From Actinomycetota bacterium (lineage in GTDB: Bacteria > Actinomycetota > Actinomycetes > Mycobacteriales > SCTD01): DNA of 44,516 bases. A model generated the notes under the pieces. It worked only from the letters and a program-made list of their open reading frames with translations, did no database searches and was not told where the DNA came from. The stretch is from assembly GCA_019348355.1 (NCBI GenBank), contig JAHWJP010000009.1:1-44516 (forward strand). Reading direction: 5' to 3'. The translations under genes were made by a program, and so were the position numbers. Of this stretch, positions 3,546 through 13,235 are shown in pieces; the stretch's first letter is position 1, and every line of letters begins with the position of its first letter.

Positions 3546-4475
3546 TCAGGGAGAGGGACCGGGATCGGCGGGGAGCTCGCGCAGTGACACCTGGCAGAAC
3601 ATCGGGATCGGTTTTGCTTCCAGCGCGTCGCAGGTGAGGCGCTGCTCGCCGCCGCCGGAGCGGTCGTAACGCACGACCACCTCGATCCCTGGCCCGCCCG
3701 GACCGGCGAGCTGCACCGACCAGGTGTCCGGCCCGGTCCCCTCCTGCCGCAGCGGGAGCAGGTCGGCAACCCGCCACCGTCCGGTCGCCTCCCGGGCGAA
3801 CTGCTGCGCTGCCTGGGTCGGCAACGGCCGGCTGCTGCGCCCCCGCACCCGCCCCGCCGGCAGCAGACCAGCGGCCAGCTCGTCCATGACCCGCACCGAC
3901 TCCGCGGCCTCGATCCGGCCGAGGTAGAGGCCTTCGGGCAGCACGAGGACGTTGGCGGCGAAGCGGTCGCCGCCGATGTGCGTGCACTCCCAGGTCTGCT
4001 CCGGAAAGCGCTGCGAGAGGGCCTTGGCGACCGGCCGGCCGAGCAGCGCGCAGCACCGGTCGTGCCGGCCGTGCGTGCAGACCAGGTAGAGCGGCGAGCT
4101 CAGCGGCTCCCAGCCGGTCGGGTCCTGCACCCCGTACGGCGGTCTCAGGTCTGCCAACTCGGCGTCGTCGGTGACGTGGCGCCGCCACAGCTGCTCCCCG
4201 CCGGGCCGGCTGTCCACGGCGTAGACCTCGCGGCCGTCGGTGCGCGGCTGCCCGGCGGAACGGCGGATCAGCAGCAGCCGGGCCGAGGCTTCATTCGCAG
4301 TACGCGCCAGCGCCCGCGCGACGGTGACCGTCATCCGCCGGCTGGGCACCGGCTCCGGCCCCCACGCGCCGGGGTGCTCGACGAGCAGCCAGCGCGCCAC
4401 CCGGCTCGCGGTCGCGGCCATCGGCTCGGCGCGCTCCAGCGACGTCGCCGAGCACAGAGCACTCATCCGGCCCAC
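3546..4475 (-). CDS. Sucrase/ferredoxin-like (Suc_Fer-like, thioredoxin-fold Fe-S) protein
   Basis: CTHGRHDRCCALLGRPVA and ECTHIGGDRFAANVLVLPEGLYLGR motifs characteristic of the family. Confidence 0.85.
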   Translation of the reverse strand: MGRMSALCSATSLERAEPMAATASRVARWLLVEHPGAWGPEPVPSRRMTVTVARALARTANEASARLLLIRRSAGQPRTDGREVYAVDSRPGGEQLWRRHVTDDAELADLRPPYGVQDPTGWEPLSSPLYLVCTHGRHDRCCALLGRPVAKALSQRFPEQTWECTHIGGDRFAANVLVLPEGLYLGRIEAAESVRVMDELAAGLLPAGRVRGRSSRPLPTQAAQQFAREATGRWRVADLLPLRQEGTGPDTWSVQLAGPGGPGIEVVVRYDRSGGGEQRLTCDALEAKPIPMFCQVSLRELPADPGPSP

Positions 4476-6261: not shown

Positions 6262-7269
6262 GTGAGCCGGACCTGTGGGCGCATCGGGCAGTACGTCCTG
6301 GTGCTCTGGGTCGCCGGAACCTTGAACTTCGCGCTGCCCCGCCTGGCCCCCGGCGACCCGGTCGCCTACGTCTACGGCGGTGACGCGCAGGCGCTGTCCG
6401 AGCGCCAGCTCGCGGCACTGCGGGAGACCTTCGGACTGGACCGGTCCCTCGCCGAGCAGTACGCCGGCTTCTGGACCGGGCTGCTGCGCGGCGACCTGGG
6501 GACGTCGGTGCAGGACAGCCGCCCCGTGGTCGACGTGCTGGCCGAGCGCCTCCCCTGGACGGTGGCACTGGTCGGCACCGCCACTGCCCTGGCTTTCGTG
6601 CTGGGTTCCCTGCTCGGGGCCTGGGCTGCGTGGCGTCGCGGAAGCAAGCGGGACGCTGCCGTGACGAGCGCGGTGCTCGCCGTGGACGCGATGCCCGGCT
6701 TCTGGATCGCCATGGTGGCCGTCGCGGTGTTCGCCGTGCAGCTGGGCTGGTTCCCGTCGTACGGCGCGGTGGCGCTCGACGGGCAGGGCCTCGGCGCGGC
6801 CGGTGAGGTGGTGAGCCGGATGGTCCTGCCGGTAGCCACGCTGGCACTGGCCGGGATCGGCGGGTTCTTCCTGCTCGCCCGGGCCGCGATGGTCGGGGTG
6901 CTGGACGAGCCGTTCGTGCGCCTCGCCCGCGCCAAGGGGTTGCGCGAGAGCCGAGTCGCGGTGGTTCACGGGCTGCGCACTGCGCTGCTGCCGGTGTTCA
7001 CCAACCTGGCGTTGGCGATCGGTGCCCTGCTGTCCGGCGCTGTCGTCGTCGAGACCGTCTTCGCCTACCCGGGGCTCGGCTCGCTGATCTTCGAGGCGGT
7101 GACGGTCCGGGACTACCCGCTCCTGCAGGGCGCGTTCCTGCTCGTCACGGTCGGCATCGTCGGGGCGAACCTGCTGGCGGACCTGGCCTACCCGCTGCTG
7201 GACCCCCGCCTGCGCCGGGTCCGGGCGCCCCGCGGCACCCAGCTCCGCCAGGTGGTGGTCCGGGGATGA
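6262..7269 (+). CDS. Dpp/Opp-type ABC permease (DppB-like)
   Basis: GTG start in frame with track ORF 5842..7269; LPRLAPGDPVAYVYGG, LARAKGLRESRVAVVHGLRTALLPVFT. Confidence 0.9.
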   Translation: MSRTCGRIGQYVLVLWVAGTLNFALPRLAPGDPVAYVYGGDAQALSERQLAALRETFGLDRSLAEQYAGFWTGLLRGDLGTSVQDSRPVVDVLAERLPWTVALVGTATALAFVLGSLLGAWAAWRRGSKRDAAVTSAVLAVDAMPGFWIAMVAVAVFAVQLGWFPSYGAVALDGQGLGAAGEVVSRMVLPVATLALAGIGGFFLLARAAMVGVLDEPFVRLARAKGLRESRVAVVHGLRTALLPVFTNLALAIGALLSGAVVVETVFAYPGLGSLIFEAVTVRDYPLLQGAFLLVTVGIVGANLLADLAYPLLDPRLRRVRAPRGTQLRQVVVRG

Positions 7270-8933
7270 CCCGGCGCTCGCGACGCCTGGCCGGTCTCGG
7301 GCTCGGCCTGCTGTCCGCCTTGCTGCTGGTGGCCCTGACCGCACCGTGGTTGGCGCCGTACGACCCGACCGTCCGCGTCGGCGTCCCGTTCGCGCGACCG
7401 TCTGCCGCCCACCTGCTCGGCACCGACGACGTCGGCAAGGACCTGCTGTCCGGGCTGATCCACGGCGCGCGCGTCTCGCTGCTGGTCGGCGTCGTCGCGG
7501 CGCTGTCCGCGACCGTTCTCGGGTCAGGTGTGGGCATCGTCGCCGGTTACGCCCGGGGTGTCGTTGACACGGTGGCGATGCGCCTGGTCGACGTCGTGCT
7601 GTCGCTGCCCGTGCTGCCGCTGACGATCGTCGTCGGGGTGTTCGCCGGGCCCGGGCTGCGCACGCAGATCTTCGTGATCGCCGGGGTGCTCTGGGCCGGG
7701 ATGGCTCGGGAGCTGCGCGCGCAGGTGCTGTCACTGCGCGAGCGGGACCATCTCCAGGCGTTGCTCGCCATGGGGGCGCGGCCCTGGCATGTGCTGCCGC
7801 GCCATGTCCTGCCGGCGGTCGCTCCGCTGATCGGGCCGCAGTTCGTGCTGGCCACCAAGACCGCGATCCTGCTGGAGGCGTCGCTGGCCTTCCTCGGCCT
7901 CGGCGATCTCACCAGAGCGAGCTGGGGGACGATGCTGTCCCTGGCACACGCCCGCAGCGCCTTCCTCACCGACGCCTGGCTGTGGTGGGTGCTGCCTCCG
8001 GGGCTGGCCATCGCGACGACGGTCCTCGCGTTCGGGCTGCTCGGTCACGTCCTCGAGGAGCGCACCCGGCCCGGTCTGCGCGACCGGCCCGCCGCACCTC
8101 GCCGCGACGTGCCGGTGAGCGCACCGGTCGTGGACACCGTCGACGCTGCGCTCGTGATCTCGCAGCTGTCCGTGCGCTACGGCGACGTCCTTGTCGTGGA
8201 CGGGGTGAGCCTGACGGTGGCCGCCGGAGAACTGGTCGGGCTGGTCGGGGAGTCCGGCAGCGGGAAGTCCACGATCGCCGGCGCCGCGCTCGCGCTGCTG
8301 CCAGCGGGCGCCACCGTCAGCGGCGGCGGGGTGCGGGTGTGCGGACAGGACCTCACCAACGCCTCGCCGGCCGCGCTGCGAGCGCTGCGGGGCAACCGCG
8401 TGGCCCTGATCCCGCAGGAGGCGAACAGCGCCCTGAACCCGGTGCTGACGGTCGGCTTCCAGCTCGCCGAGACCGTACGCGCGCACCGGCCGGTCGGCCG
8501 AGCTGCCGTCCGGGCGCGAGCTCTCGAGCTGCTCGGGCAGGTCGGGCTGGACCCGGACCGGGTCGGCGACTACCCCCACCAGCTGTCCGGCGGGATGCGG
8601 CAGCGGGTGGTGATCGCGATGGCGCTGGCGGGGGACCCGGAGGTGCTTGTCGCCGACGAGCCGACCAGCGGCCTCGACGTGCTCGTGCAGGCCGATGTGC
8701 TGGACCTGCTCGACGGGCTGCGCACCCGCCTGGGCCTCGCGATGCTGGTGGTGTCGCACGACCTGCCGGTGATCGAGCGGGTCGCCGATCGGATCGCGGT
8801 CCTGCAGGCGGGCCGGCTGGTCGAGGTGGGTGACACCGCGACGATCACCACGGTGGCCGCCCACCCGTGCACCCAGGCGTTGCTGGCGTCCGCGCCCCGC
8901 CTGCGGCTGCCCGCCGGGCAGGTGCGGCGGTGA
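7266..8933 (+). CDS. Fused DppC-type permease and DppD-type ATPase
   Basis: N-half permease motifs (HLLGTDDVGKDLLSGLIHGARVSLLVGV); C-half Walker [31 protein letters not shown] in a single 555-aa ORF. Confidence 0.92.
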   Translation: MTRRSRRLAGLGLGLLSALLLVALTAPWLAPYDPTVRVGVPFARPSAAHLLGTDDVGKDLLSGLIHGARVSLLVGVVAALSATVLGSGVGIVAGYARGVVDTVAMRLVDVVLSLPVLPLTIVVGVFAGPGLRTQIFVIAGVLWAGMARELRAQVLSLRERDHLQALLAMGARPWHVLPRHVLPAVAPLIGPQFVLATKTAILLEASLAFLGLGDLTRASWGTMLSLAHARSAFLTDAWLWWVLPPGLAIATTVLAFGLLGHVLEERTRPGLRDRPAAPRRDVPVSAPVVDTVDAALVISQLSVRYGDVLVVDGVSLTVAAGELVGLVGESGSGKSTIAGAALALLPAGATVSGGGVRVCGQDLTNASPAALRALRGNRVALIPQEANSALNPVLTVGFQLAETVRAHRPVGRAAVRARALELLGQVGLDPDRVGDYPHQLSGGMRQRVVIAMALAGDPEVLVADEPTSGLDVLVQADVLDLLDGLRTRLGLAMLVVSHDLPVIERVADRIAVLQAGRLVEVGDTATITTVAAHPCTQALLASAPRLRLPAGQVRR

Positions 8934-9814
8934 GCCGCGCTGCCGGTGCGCCGGTGCCCGAGGTGCCGGTGCCCGAGGTGCCGGTGCCCGAGGTGCCGGT
9001 GCTCGAGGTCGAGGGGCTGACTGTGAGCTTCCGACAGCGGGGCAGCAGCCGCCGGCTGGTGGCGCTGGCCGACGTCGACCTCACGGTGGCCGCCGCCGAG
9101 TCGGTGGCCCTGGTCGGCGGCTCGGGCGCCGGCAAGTCGACGCTCGCGCGGACGGTAGCCGGCTTGGTGCAGGCCGACCGGGGGAGCATCCGACTCGACG
9201 GAACTGACCTCTCGGGGCTCTCCCGCGCCGACGCGCGCCGGCGACGGCGGGCGCTGCACCTGGTGTTCCAGAACCCGTACGCCTCACTGCCCCCCACCCT
9301 GCGGGTCGTCGACATCGTCGCCGAGCCACTCGTGATCCACCGGGTGGGGGACCGCGAGCAGCGGCGGGACCGGGTCGAGCACGCGCTTGCCGCCGTCCGC
9401 CTGGATCCGATCGGGCGCTACCTTCCGCGCTACCCGCACCAGCTGTCCGGTGGGCAGCGGCAGCGGGTGGCCCTGGCCCGGGCGCTGGTCACCCGACCGC
9501 GGCTGATTCTCGCGGACGAGCCGACCCAGATGCTCGACGCCTCGCTGCGGGTCCAGCTCAGCGAGCTGCTCGGCGAGCTCAGCGCCGACCACGGTCTCGC
9601 CGTCGTGCACATCACGCACGACCTGGCCCTCGCGCAGCGCAGCTGCACCCGGTTGGTCGTCATGCAGGCCGGTCGGGTCGTCGAGGACGGCGAGACCGCA
9701 CAGGTGCTCGGTGACCCGCAGCACCCCTACACCGCGGCGCTCGTGGCGGCCGCGGCTGCAACCCGAGAACAGTCGCCCGCTCCCAGGAGGACCGCATGCC
9801 CGACATCGCCGTGA
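8930..9814 (+). CDS. ABC transporter ATPase (DppF-like)
   Basis: GTG start overlaps previous stop; GGSGAGKST, LSGGQRQRVALARAL, LILADEPTQMLD. Confidence 0.9.
   Translation: MSRAAGAPVPEVPVPEVPVPEVPVLEVEGLTVSFRQRGSSRRLVALADVDLTVAAAESVALVGGSGAGKSTLARTVAGLVQADRGSIRLDGTDLSGLSRADARRRRRALHLVFQNPYASLPPTLRVVDIVAEPLVIHRVGDREQRRDRVEHALAAVRLDPIGRYLPRYPHQLSGGQRQRVALARALVTRPRLILADEPTQMLDASLRVQLSELLGELSADHGLAVVHITHDLALAQRSCTRLVVMQAGRVVEDGETAQVLGDPQHPYTAALVAAAAATREQSPAPRRTACPTSP
8951..9010 (+). repeat. 15-bp coding tandem repeat (three exact copies plus one degenerate), encoding (VPEVP)n
   Basis: ccggtgcccgaggtg x3 at 8951-8995 followed by ccggtgctcgaggtc. Confidence 0.95.
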
Positions 9815-11070
9815 TCAGCATGGACATCGCCGGGCCGGCCGGGCGCCTGGAGAGTGGAGCGCTCGGTCACCGGGTCCGGGCCGTCGACTGCTACTACCTG
9901 GCCCGGGCCGACCTGTCCGACGTGGCGGTGCTCGTGGTCCCGGCAGCGGTCGACCAGGAGCACCTGGCCCGCTGCCGCGGGGCGGTGCGCGGCTTTCTGG
10001 ACGGCGGCGGGGTGCTGGTCTTCGGCGGCCAGCTGCACCGGGACTGGCTGCCGGGCGGCTCGTCCTTCGTCCCGATCGACCCGCCGTCGCTGCAGGCCTA
10101 CCGGGTGACCGAGATCGCCGCGCACCCGATCTTCACCGGTGTCGAGGCCGACGACCTGACCTTTCGCCGCGGCGTGGCCGGCTTCTTCGCCCGGGGCCAC
10201 CACCCGCCGCCGCCCGGCGCCGAGGTGCTCGTCCGGCTGTCCGGCGGCGAGCCGGTGACCTACGTCGACCGCACCTCGACCGCCGGCACGATCGTGGTGC
10301 AGGCCACCGGCGACCTGCTGGGCTTCCAGGACGGTCAGGATCGCACGGCCGCCCGCATCCCCGGCCAGCTCCTCGACTGGGCGGTCGGCCAGGCCGCCGG
10401 GCCGGCGACCGCAAGCAGACCCGCCGGCGGGGGGCGTGGCATCGCCGCGGTGTACGGCGGCTCGGCTCCGCACCACCGCGCCCTCACGACGCCGAAGTAC
10501 GCCCGGCATCTGACCGGCGGGTTGGTCTACCTGCCCGAGCTCGCCGACACGGACCTCACCGGCTACGACGCGCTGCTACTGCCGGAGCGGCTGCATCGTG
10601 GCCAGCTGACCCGCGCCGCACCCGGCATCCTCGGGCTGCTCGAGGCCGGCGGCACGGTGATCGCGTTCACCGGCGGCGAGCCGCCCCCGGAATTCCTGCC
10701 AGGGGTGCGCTGGGAGCACCGGCCGACGAACTTCTGGTGGTGGCTGGAGCCGGGCGCCGATCTCGGCCTGGCGGCGCCGCACCCCGACCATCCGCTGTTC
10801 GAGCACCTCACGCTGCGCGACTGCACCTGGCACCACCACGGCGTCCTCGATCCGCCGGCGGGGGCGGAGGTCCTGGTCGCCCTGCCGACGGGCGAGGCGC
10901 TGCTCTACGTCGACCGGGTCAGTACCGGTGGCACCCTCGTCGTCTCGGCGCTCGATCCGCTCAGCCACTTTGGCAGCCACTTCATGCCGGCGACCGAGCG
11001 CTTCCTGGACGGCTTCCTGCCGTGGGCGGCCGGCGCCGTGGCCCGCGACCTGACCGGAGGGCGAGTGTGA
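9796..11070 (+). CDS. Tandem-duplicated GATase1/ThuA-like protein of unknown function
   Basis: SD AGGAGG with 5-nt spacing; two internally homologous halves (GAEVLVRLSGGEPVTYVDRTSTAGTIVVQATG vs GAEVLVALPTGEALLYVDRVSTGGTLVVSALD). Confidence 0.6.
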   Translation: MPDIAVISMDIAGPAGRLESGALGHRVRAVDCYYLARADLSDVAVLVVPAAVDQEHLARCRGAVRGFLDGGGVLVFGGQLHRDWLPGGSSFVPIDPPSLQAYRVTEIAAHPIFTGVEADDLTFRRGVAGFFARGHHPPPPGAEVLVRLSGGEPVTYVDRTSTAGTIVVQATGDLLGFQDGQDRTAARIPGQLLDWAVGQAAGPATASRPAGGGRGIAAVYGGSAPHHRALTTPKYARHLTGGLVYLPELADTDLTGYDALLLPERLHRGQLTRAAPGILGLLEAGGTVIAFTGGEPPPEFLPGVRWEHRPTNFWWWLEPGADLGLAAPHPDHPLFEHLTLRDCTWHHHGVLDPPAGAEVLVALPTGEALLYVDRVSTGGTLVVSALDPLSHFGSHFMPATERFLDGFLPWAAGAVARDLTGGRV

Positions 11071-11567
11071 CCAGCGTGCAGCTGATCGACCAGGGTGAGC
11101 TCCTCACGTACCGCTTCGAGGACCTGATGCGCTATCACGGTCCGCTGTTCCCCGGCGGGGTCGCCCACGCCTTCAAGGTCCTGGAGCGGGCGCTGCCGCT
11201 GTTGGGGCCCGACGGCCCGCCCGAGCGGCGGGCGATCCGGGTGGTCACCGCGTTCCGGGGCCCCGGCGCGCGGGATGCCTTCGAGCTGGTGACCCGGGCG
11301 GTGACCGAGGACCGCTACGTCGTCGACGCCGCCCTCGAACGACCCGACCGGGGGCGCGCGCTGGAGCGCTACGTCTTCGAGCTGGCCTGCCGGGACCGGA
11401 CGGTCACGCTGCTGCTGCGGGACGGGATCGTGCGGGACGAGTTCATCGAGCTGTCCCGGGCCCCGGACCGCACCGCCGATCAGGACCAGCGGCTCACCGT
11501 GCTCAAGCAGGAGATGGCCGAGCGGCTGCTGTCCCGTCCCGCCACCGAGGTCTACGACGTGGCCTGA
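11067..11567 (+). CDS. Conserved hypothetical, possibly FmdE-like fold
   Basis: GTG start overlaps previous stop; YHGPLFPGGVAHAFKVLERAL...DAFELVTRAV resembles the FmdE HG-x-CPG...DA-x-x-VTG pattern without the cysteines. Confidence 0.45.
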   Translation: MTSVQLIDQGELLTYRFEDLMRYHGPLFPGGVAHAFKVLERALPLLGPDGPPERRAIRVVTAFRGPGARDAFELVTRAVTEDRYVVDAALERPDRGRALERYVFELACRDRTVTLLLRDGIVRDEFIELSRAPDRTADQDQRLTVLKQEMAERLLSRPATEVYDVA

Positions 11568-11580
11568 CCGCAGCCGCCGG

Positions 11581-12774
11581 TCACTGCGGGACCACGACAC
11601 CCTCGCGCAGCATCCGGCGGGCCAGCACCAGCGCCCCCTCGGCGTCGAGGTCACCGACCTGCAGCTCCTCGGGGCAGGACGGGTCGGCGAGCAGCCGGCG
11701 CAGGGCCGGCTCGACGAGCAGCGGCAGGTCCACCTGCCGGTCCGGGAGCTGGAGCCGGACCCGGTCACCGTCGACGGTGAGAGTCGCCGCGACACCGCGC
11801 CGGGGGCGCAGCGCAGTGGTGGGACCGAGGTCGTGGATCGCCGCGGACTGAGCGAGCAGGGCCAGCGGCTCGGGCGGCACCGCTCGGGCGAGCCGGGCGG
11901 CCACGACAGTCTCGAGCTCGGCGGGGGGCAGCGCCTCCAGCCAGGCGGCGGCGCGGCGCAGCAGATCCGGCAGCGCCGCGCCGAGCCCGGCGGTCGGCTG
12001 CATCGGCAGGGCTTCGCGGAAGGCCGGCTCGTTGCCGGCGAGCGACACCGCGTCGCTCAGCACGTCGTACCAGGTCGTCGACAGCACCCCGACGGTCAGA
12101 TGCACGGAGTGCTCGTCGGTGGTCACGGCGGCGTGCACGTAGCCGCGCGGCAGGTAGAGGGCGTCGCCGGTCTCGAGCTCGATGTCGAGCAGCGGGTCGG
12201 CGCCCTCGGCGACGAGGTGGGCACCGGCCTCGGCTTGGGAGGCGAGCGGCAGGTGGAGCACCGGCTCGTGCACGATCCAGCGCTTGCGGCCGCTGACCTG
12301 CAGGACGAACACGTCGTGGGTGTCGTGGTGGAAGTCGAAGCCCTGGTGCTGGCCGCCGGGGGTGACGTAGGCGTTGCACTGGGTCGCGTGACCGAGCTCG
12401 GCGGCCAGCTCCCGGCAGAAGCGGGCGACCGGCGGATGCATGCGGTGCAGCGACTGCAGGACGAGGGTGGCGCCGCCGGCGTACTGCGTGGCCAGGCCGT
12501 CGCCGTCCACGACGTCCCCGATCCGGCGGCTGCCTGCGGTCACCGTTCGGGTGGGGGTGGGCAGCCCGCCGCCACCTGAGACGGTACGGAAGAAGGGCGT
12601 ACGCAGCGCCCGGTCCGCGACGAGCTCGTCGACGTCGTTGACCGACAACAGGTCCTCGAAGCTCGTCGGCAGTTGCTTGGCGCGGGACAGCAGAGGGGAG
12701 CGCGACCAGTGCTCGGCGGCGAAGGTCGCCGCGTCGAGATGGCTGCACCGGGCGAGCGAACTCGGGGACGGCAT
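11581..12774 (-). CDS. JmjC/cupin_4-family Fe(II)/2-oxoglutarate oxygenase-like protein
   Basis: AYVTPGGQHQGFDFHHDTHDVFVLQVSGRKRWIVHEP and DALYLPRGYVHAAVT (metal-binding HxD...H); GGAG upstream of ATG at 12774. Confidence 0.85.
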   Translation of the reverse strand: MPSPSSLARCSHLDAATFAAEHWSRSPLLSRAKQLPTSFEDLLSVNDVDELVADRALRTPFFRTVSGGGGLPTPTRTVTAGSRRIGDVVDGDGLATQYAGGATLVLQSLHRMHPPVARFCRELAAELGHATQCNAYVTPGGQHQGFDFHHDTHDVFVLQVSGRKRWIVHEPVLHLPLASQAEAGAHLVAEGADPLLDIELETGDALYLPRGYVHAAVTTDEHSVHLTVGVLSTTWYDVLSDAVSLAGNEPAFREALPMQPTAGLGAALPDLLRRAAAWLEALPPAELETVVAARLARAVPPEPLALLAQSAAIHDLGPTTALRPRRGVAATLTVDGDRVRLQLPDRQVDLPLLVEPALRRLLADPSCPEELQVGDLDAEGALVLARRMLREGVVVPQ

Positions 12775-12893
12775 CGGGCTCCAGGGATCGGCGCAGACCA
12801 GGATGTGGCGATCATGCCCGCCAGGCAGCGGGGGGTTGATCGCCACGTCCGGTCCGCGCGGCGACGGGTCGGGCTGCGAGGACCGTCCGGCCG

Positions 12894-13130
12894 CTAGGAG
12901 CTGTCGCTCTGGTCGGCGTCGCCGCCACCGCCGCTGTCGCTCTGGTCGGCGTCGCCCCCACCGCTGCTGTCGCCCTGGTCGGAGTCGCCGCCGCCGCCCG
13001 GGTCGCTGCCGGCCGGGTCGCTGCCGGCCGGGTCGACCTGCGTCTCGCTGCTGTCGCCCTGGTCGGCGTCGCCGCCGCCCGGGGTCGCGCTGGCTGTGGT
13101 GGTCATGTCCTCGTCGCGCAGCGTGCTCAC
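12894..13130 (-). CDS. Small acidic repeat protein (78 aa, Asp/Gly/Ser-rich), candidate modified-peptide precursor
   Basis: GGAGGTACGGC-GTG: strong SD with 6-nt spacer; repeated GGGDADQ(G/S)DSS units and DPAGS x2; synonymous codon variation between repeats. Confidence 0.6.
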   Translation of the reverse strand: MSTLRDEDMTTTASATPGGGDADQGDSSETQVDPAGSDPAGSDPGGGGDSDQGDSSGGGDADQSDSGGGGDADQSDSS

Positions 13131-13235
13131 GCCGTACCTCCGCTGGTCTCATCACTCCGACCGCGGGGCTCCGCGGTCGCGCTGCGAGCCCTGCCCCGTC
13201 TCGCGTCGGGCATTCCTCGCGGCCGCCCCTTCGCC

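Follow-up and report, generated by a model that had tools for sequence, protein, structure and literature searches.

The window analyzed here, a 44,516-nt stretch of actinobacterial DNA, encodes a 78-aa repeat peptide directly upstream of a JmjC oxygenase, and the two genes have stayed adjacent in hundreds of actinobacterial species. Our preferred reading, to which we assign a probability of roughly 60%, is that the two constitute a RiPP-type precursor-enzyme module in which the core of the peptide is hydroxylated, most likely on Asp.

The repeat peptide is under coding selection

The following features of the peptide gene were found (coordinates are those of the window).

12894..13130, minus strand: Asp/Gly/Ser repeat peptide of 78 aa, candidate precursor (ORF reading; every testable orthologue has a homologous peptide upstream)
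13137..13141, minus strand: Shine-Dalgarno sequence GGAGG, 6 nt 5' of the GTG start (read directly)
13095..13130, minus strand: conserved leader MSTLRDEDMTTT, family motif [LIM]xD[DE]D[IM] (motif count; AlphaFold2 [AF2] read-through model)
12897..13094, minus strand: repeat core GGGDADQ(G/S)DS / DPAGS (tandem repeats; disorder predicted for the core of a congener)

The original prediction had singled out this ORF, and its sequence reads as quoted there: the Shine-Dalgarno sequence lies where it was claimed, the repeat copies differ chiefly by synonymous codons, and Cys, Phe, Tyr, and Trp are absent. The repeat unit can also be written GGGD(A/S)DQ(G/S)DS, and TRF detected a 33-nt array of 3 copies (12900-12998) and a 15-nt array of 3.1 copies (12989-13035) in the gene. 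The third-position GC content of the ORF was 96%. No second copy of the repeat motif was found in the source genome bin (2.97 Mb, 88% complete). Comparison with NCBIfam gave no matching model for either the peptide or the JmjC gene.

Tandem repeats easily arise in DNA of 73% GC, and the ORF might be an untranslated GC-rich repeat or an attenuator. However, when the repeats within single genes of the family were compared, 727 differences fell on the third codon position, 71 on the first, and 60 on the second. This strong third-position excess, the conserved Shine-Dalgarno sites, and the phylum-wide conservation of the protein motif all speak against an untranslated element, which is extremely improbable; a chance repeat in untranslated DNA is ruled out by the codon-position bias (727 versus 131) and by the linkage described below. 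We conclude that the peptide ORF is under coding selection.

The JmjC protein has an intact active site and a predicted RRE-like C-terminal domain

A JmjC gene follows on the same strand, as had been predicted, 119 nt from the peptide stop.

11581..12774, minus strand: JmjC_2 (PF08007) Fe(II)/2-oxoglutarate (2OG) oxygenase, 397 aa (Pfam, 2e-26; nearest solved structures NO66, MINA53, and YcfD)
12779-12782, minus strand: Shine-Dalgarno sequence GGAG of the JmjC gene, preceding the ATG
12322..12330, minus strand: HxD of the Fe(II) site, H149 and D151 (invariant; aligned with NO66)
12133-12135, minus strand: third Fe(II) ligand, H214 (invariant)
11605..11793, minus strand: C-terminal domain with RRE-like secondary-structure order (AF2/DSSP: E331-335, E338-342, E347-351, H352-363, H368-371, H378-390)

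The metal site proposed earlier was confirmed by the alignment, in which H149-x-D151...H214 is invariant among 23 orthologues; Lys164 and Asn134 are invariant as well. With this HxD...H triad and a cupin fold, the protein belongs to the JmjC_2 2OG oxygenases; the source genome bin (2.97 Mb, 88% complete) contains no further PF08007 protein. Its nearest solved structures, both by sequence and by fold, are NO66, MINA53, and YcfD, with which it shares the fold and the metal site. These three enzymes modify ribosomal proteins, and none of them comes with a precursor gene. The HYDDIE stretch of NO66, moreover, is replaced by an invariant HxDxHD in the family studied here.

The AF2 model of the JmjC protein had a mean pLDDT of 92.5, and its last domain runs strand-strand-strand-helix-helix-helix. 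According to PMC12710340 (2025), the strict definition of an RRE is the beta3-alpha3 order, i.e., three strands followed by three helices; that paper also reports PF08007 proteins with RRE-like domains, the bacterial homologues of which are said to sit in RiPP-like contexts. Judged by the secondary-structure order of the AF2 model, the C-terminal domain of the window protein is RRE-like and may be of the leader-binding type. It thereby resembles the proteins of PMC12710340, in which a beta3-alpha3 winged helix accompanies a PF08007 domain. For those proteins, the main text of PMC12710340 describes neither a precursor family or repeat peptide nor a leader motif or Suc_Fer partner.

The peptide and JmjC genes are linked across the phylum

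A JmjC search of 60 related genomes and the source genome gave matches in 34. At the 30 loci inspected, the peptide was missing only from L007, which is at a contig edge, and L012 shows only its last part. A second scan covered 84,980 genomes of named species and yielded at least 563 JmjC relatives, the best 80 of which were kept; the two samples overlap in part. Among the best 80 of these at least 563 relatives are Mycobacterium, Mycolicibacterium, Gordonia, Williamsia, Rhodococcus, Micromonospora, and Salinispora, as well as Actinoplanes, Cellulomonas, Agromyces, Leifsonia, Kineococcus, Modestobacter, and Frankiales bins.

Upstream DNA was present for 78 of the 80, the testable loci. All of these have, on the JmjC strand, an upstream gene for a short peptide with Asp-rich repeats, the end of which is no more than about 110 nt from the start of the JmjC match. 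A fixed detector, the criterion of which had been adjusted after the family was seen, scored 78/78. The first version, which required 18% Asp, had detected 46/78, because many mycobacterial and Micromonospora-type cores lie just under 18%; the threshold was then relaxed once and the null was rerun. In this null, 9/2578 random stretches from the same loci and 0/78 antisense strands were positive. The comparison with the random stretches excludes chance adjacency, and the expectation that a repeat ORF lies upstream of JmjC orthologues thus held phylum-wide. As in RiPP pathways, a short precursor-type gene adjoins a modifying-type enzyme gene, and this arrangement is conserved across taxa.

The JmjC family was detected at an E value below 1e-30 in 58/396 genomes drawn across Actinomycetota. 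In deep-branching lineages the upstream peptide is present in the form LTDEDIETV...DADGTDGDATD, and distant JmjC paralogues (L167-L176; 30 to 35% identity) have no such peptide upstream. In a tree of 70 JmjC proteins, all 60 peptide-linked ones group together, save for one nested peptide-less row, L171 (G425). This is a long branch, beside which no Asp-rich peptide was found; a loss or a change of substrate is possible. The distant paralogue L169 (G408) is preceded by a different small peptide ending in DEELEALSGGLEVI, which resembles a double-glycine RiPP leader. A plasmid search returned paralogues only (about 31% identity). A degenerate DNA pattern for DGGADG, meant for orphan peptides, was too short, and most high-GC genomes match it by chance.

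Since the nearest solved relatives are ribosomal oxygenases and no second PF08007 protein is found in the source genome bin, the JmjC protein could instead act on a ribosomal (or other) protein, with the acidic peptide as a regulator, inhibitor, or substrate mimic. However, a regulator would not need a variable repeat number, and many of the relatives scanned have neither the peptide nor the JmjC gene, which would be odd for an enzyme of the ribosome. The RRE order predicted for the C-terminal domain also argues against this explanation, which we consider quite unlikely.

Leader and core of the peptide family

By regex, the leader motif [LIM]xD[DE]D[IM] is present in 113 of the 121 unique peptides; among the remaining 8, several are near-variants or have a wrongly chosen start. 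The leader plus multirepeat core that the original prediction had described for the window is also found at orthologous loci, where the leader motif is conserved and the repeat number varies between peptides. A conserved leader with a variable core is typical of RiPP precursors; exceptions are L147 and L148, in which an EGPADGG core is retained and the leader motif is absent, and L149, in which the upstream acidic peptide has no repeats.

In some relatives the peptide and the JmjC protein are in one frame, with a single stop codon between them. We modeled such a natural read-through frame, that of L055 from the genus of the window, with AF2. Leader residues 1 to 10 had a mean pLDDT of 94 and a strand at 10 to 13, the core had a pLDDT of 35 to 38 and was predicted to be disordered, and the enzyme was at about 95. 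Since a strand formed in the model must pair with something, we infer that the leader would pair with the RRE-like C-terminal domain of the JmjC protein.

The cores of the 121 peptides are built almost wholly from Asp, Gly, Ala, Ser, Thr, and Pro, and Lys and aromatic residues are nearly absent from the family. Asp is present in every core (mean, 18%), with Asp-Asp pairs being avoided (28 observed versus 286 expected). Because Asp is the sole reactive residue found in every core, the composition of the family lends support to Asp as the probable modified residue. Counting against this argument, every core contains Gly and Ala too, although both are poor targets for hydroxylation. The unusual repeat cores of L159 and L177, ADGTDQGVxGGTYGPRDA and PTEDDENLDAPGEHSQDTGDE, are of use for telling which residue is modified.

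The enzyme-substrate pair might also perform chemistry other than making 3-hydroxyaspartate throughout, namely, cross-linking, backbone cleavage, or decarboxylation of the core or, in some lineages, hydroxylation of His, Asn, or a different residue. The nearest characterized relatives hydroxylate His (NO66 and MINA53) and Arg (YcfD), GHDGGADG is present in many cores, and His and Asn are common in the cores of some lineages. Furthermore, 2OG enzymes in RiPP pathways run several reactions, as illustrated by the 2OG macrocyclization (JACS 2025 147:26693) cited in PMC12710340. Nevertheless, in the genus of the window and in deep lineages the core has no conserved His or Asn, and Cys, Lys, and aromatic residues usable for cross-links are absent from the cores. 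Such alternative chemistry seems rather unlikely, and hydroxylation of Asp remains our preferred reading.

Genes and regulatory elements beside the pair

ORF clustering beside the pair in 26 diverse genomes revealed one further shared family, a Suc_Fer-like protein, encoded directly downstream in 19 of them.

3546..4466, minus strand: Suc_Fer-like (PF06999) [2Fe-2S] protein, probable third gene (Pfam, 5e-19)
12801..12850, minus strand: strong RNA hairpin between the peptide and JmjC genes, with 19-nt arms (fold z-score, -3.55)

The Suc_Fer-like protein of the window matched its Pfam model with 69.5 bits (cut-off, 34.9). Its gene is 7 kb from the JmjC gene on the same strand, with a plus-strand Opp-type ABC operon in between. 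Without correction for kinship, a Suc_Fer-like gene was present within 1.5 kb downstream of JmjC at 40/59 peptide-linked loci versus 0/10 peptide-less paralogues, and in 16/16 JmjC-positive versus 3/10 JmjC-negative relatives. The Opp transporter was dropped as a partner, since relatives have Suc_Fer directly after JmjC without Opp. At 7266-9814 of the window, one continuous frame encodes both an Opp-type permease and an ATPase; a second ATPase comes next, with the 15-nt tandem repeat (PVPEV)4 in its start region (8950-9009). The plus-strand ORFs between the Opp genes and JmjC (9796-11070 and 11046-11567) gave no Pfam or NCBIfam match.

No conserved protease or exporter gene was found within 5 kb of the pair in the 26 diverse genomes, unlike in most RiPP clusters, which counts against the RiPP reading; such proteins could be encoded elsewhere or be absent. 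An ATP-grasp ligase, as expected for a graspetide cluster, was not found either, the Suc_Fer-like family being the only other one conserved beside the pair.

The intergenic hairpin, which is of similar strength in L018 and weaker in L003 and L027, may set the precursor-to-enzyme ratio or tune expression. The divergent gene upstream of the peptide gene encodes a demethylmenaquinone methyltransferase. A SigF/SigB-like box, GTTT-N13-16-sGGsvA, lies 60 to 130 nt before the peptide start at 14/21 mycobacterial loci (e.g., L074, L084, L103, and L129), as counted in the very alignment from which the motif was derived.

This box, the Suc_Fer neighbor, and a composition like that of acidic metal-binding proteins would also fit an unmodified, disordered metal-binding or protectant protein, with JmjC coexpressed for the same stress or metal response. 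This explanation does not account for the strict one-to-one adjacency with JmjC, and AF2 is confident in its prediction that the leader folds onto the JmjC chain. We regard an unmodified protein as very improbable and return to the precursor-enzyme module.

Proposed mechanism and comparison with known systems

In the proposed mechanism, the acidic leader (LRDEDM/LDDDDI) would form a beta-strand and dock onto the RRE-like winged helix of the JmjC C terminus. The flexible repeat core would then pass through the Fe(II)/2-oxoglutarate site and be hydroxylated at many positions, most likely at the Asp C-beta. The product would be an extended acidic peptide that carries numerous 3-hydroxyaspartates and can bind metal ions. 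Given the lack of a conserved neighboring protease or exporter gene, it probably stays and acts inside the cell, with the Suc_Fer-like [2Fe-2S] protein probably giving redox or iron support. More tentatively, we consider it possible that the family represents a phylum-wide RiPP-like class in which a single JmjC-RRE enzyme makes a poly-3-hydroxyaspartyl chain that would ligate metal or iron inside the cell, jointly with Suc_Fer; such a class may have gone unnoticed because its peptides are without Lys, aromatic residues, and Cys.

In its supposed working the pair resembles a RiPP pathway and can be viewed as a candidate RiPP system. A precedent is the hydroxylation of ornithine in biphenomycin RiPP precursors by the JmjC/cupin enzymes BipG and PbsQ (PMC12707348 and PMC12257519). 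They are likewise JmjC/cupin-like 2OG oxygenases, and their target is a side chain in a ribosomally made precursor. However, they are single tailoring enzymes among an MNIO, a radical SAM enzyme, an arginase, and a protease, whereas JmjC is the only clear modifying-type enzyme here and the core consists of Asp-rich repeats. SmaO, an Asp beta-hydroxylase of a graspetide cluster, makes 3-hydroxyaspartate in a RiPP precursor (as cited in PMC13097080), the product proposed here. By its description there, on which our comparison is based, SmaO acts at the N terminus of a graspetide precursor and is clustered with an ATP-grasp ligase, which was not found beside the present pair. The large, repetitive corallotide precursor is hydroxylated by a 2OG oxygenase (PMC13097080), and the combination of repetitive precursor and 2OG oxygenase is similar to ours. 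In contrast, corallotide has Lys isopeptides made by a graspetide synthetase, and its oxygenase belongs to PF13640, not PF08007.

Implications

Full-text searches of the open-access literature turned up no account of these peptides or of their association with JmjC. Given its wide conservation, the pair is probably an undescribed peptide-modification system. Routine proteomics hardly detects peptides with cores almost without Lys or Arg and with no aromatic residues, which might explain why the family has been overlooked so far.

Mycobacteria, Salinispora, and Micromonospora are among the hundreds of actinobacterial species that have the pair. If the peptide is modified, it would represent a new precursor class with a JmjC oxygenase as its main enzyme. 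This would explain the role of a large group of bacterial JmjC_2 proteins and would provide a clean case of a JmjC protein carrying its own leader-binding domain.
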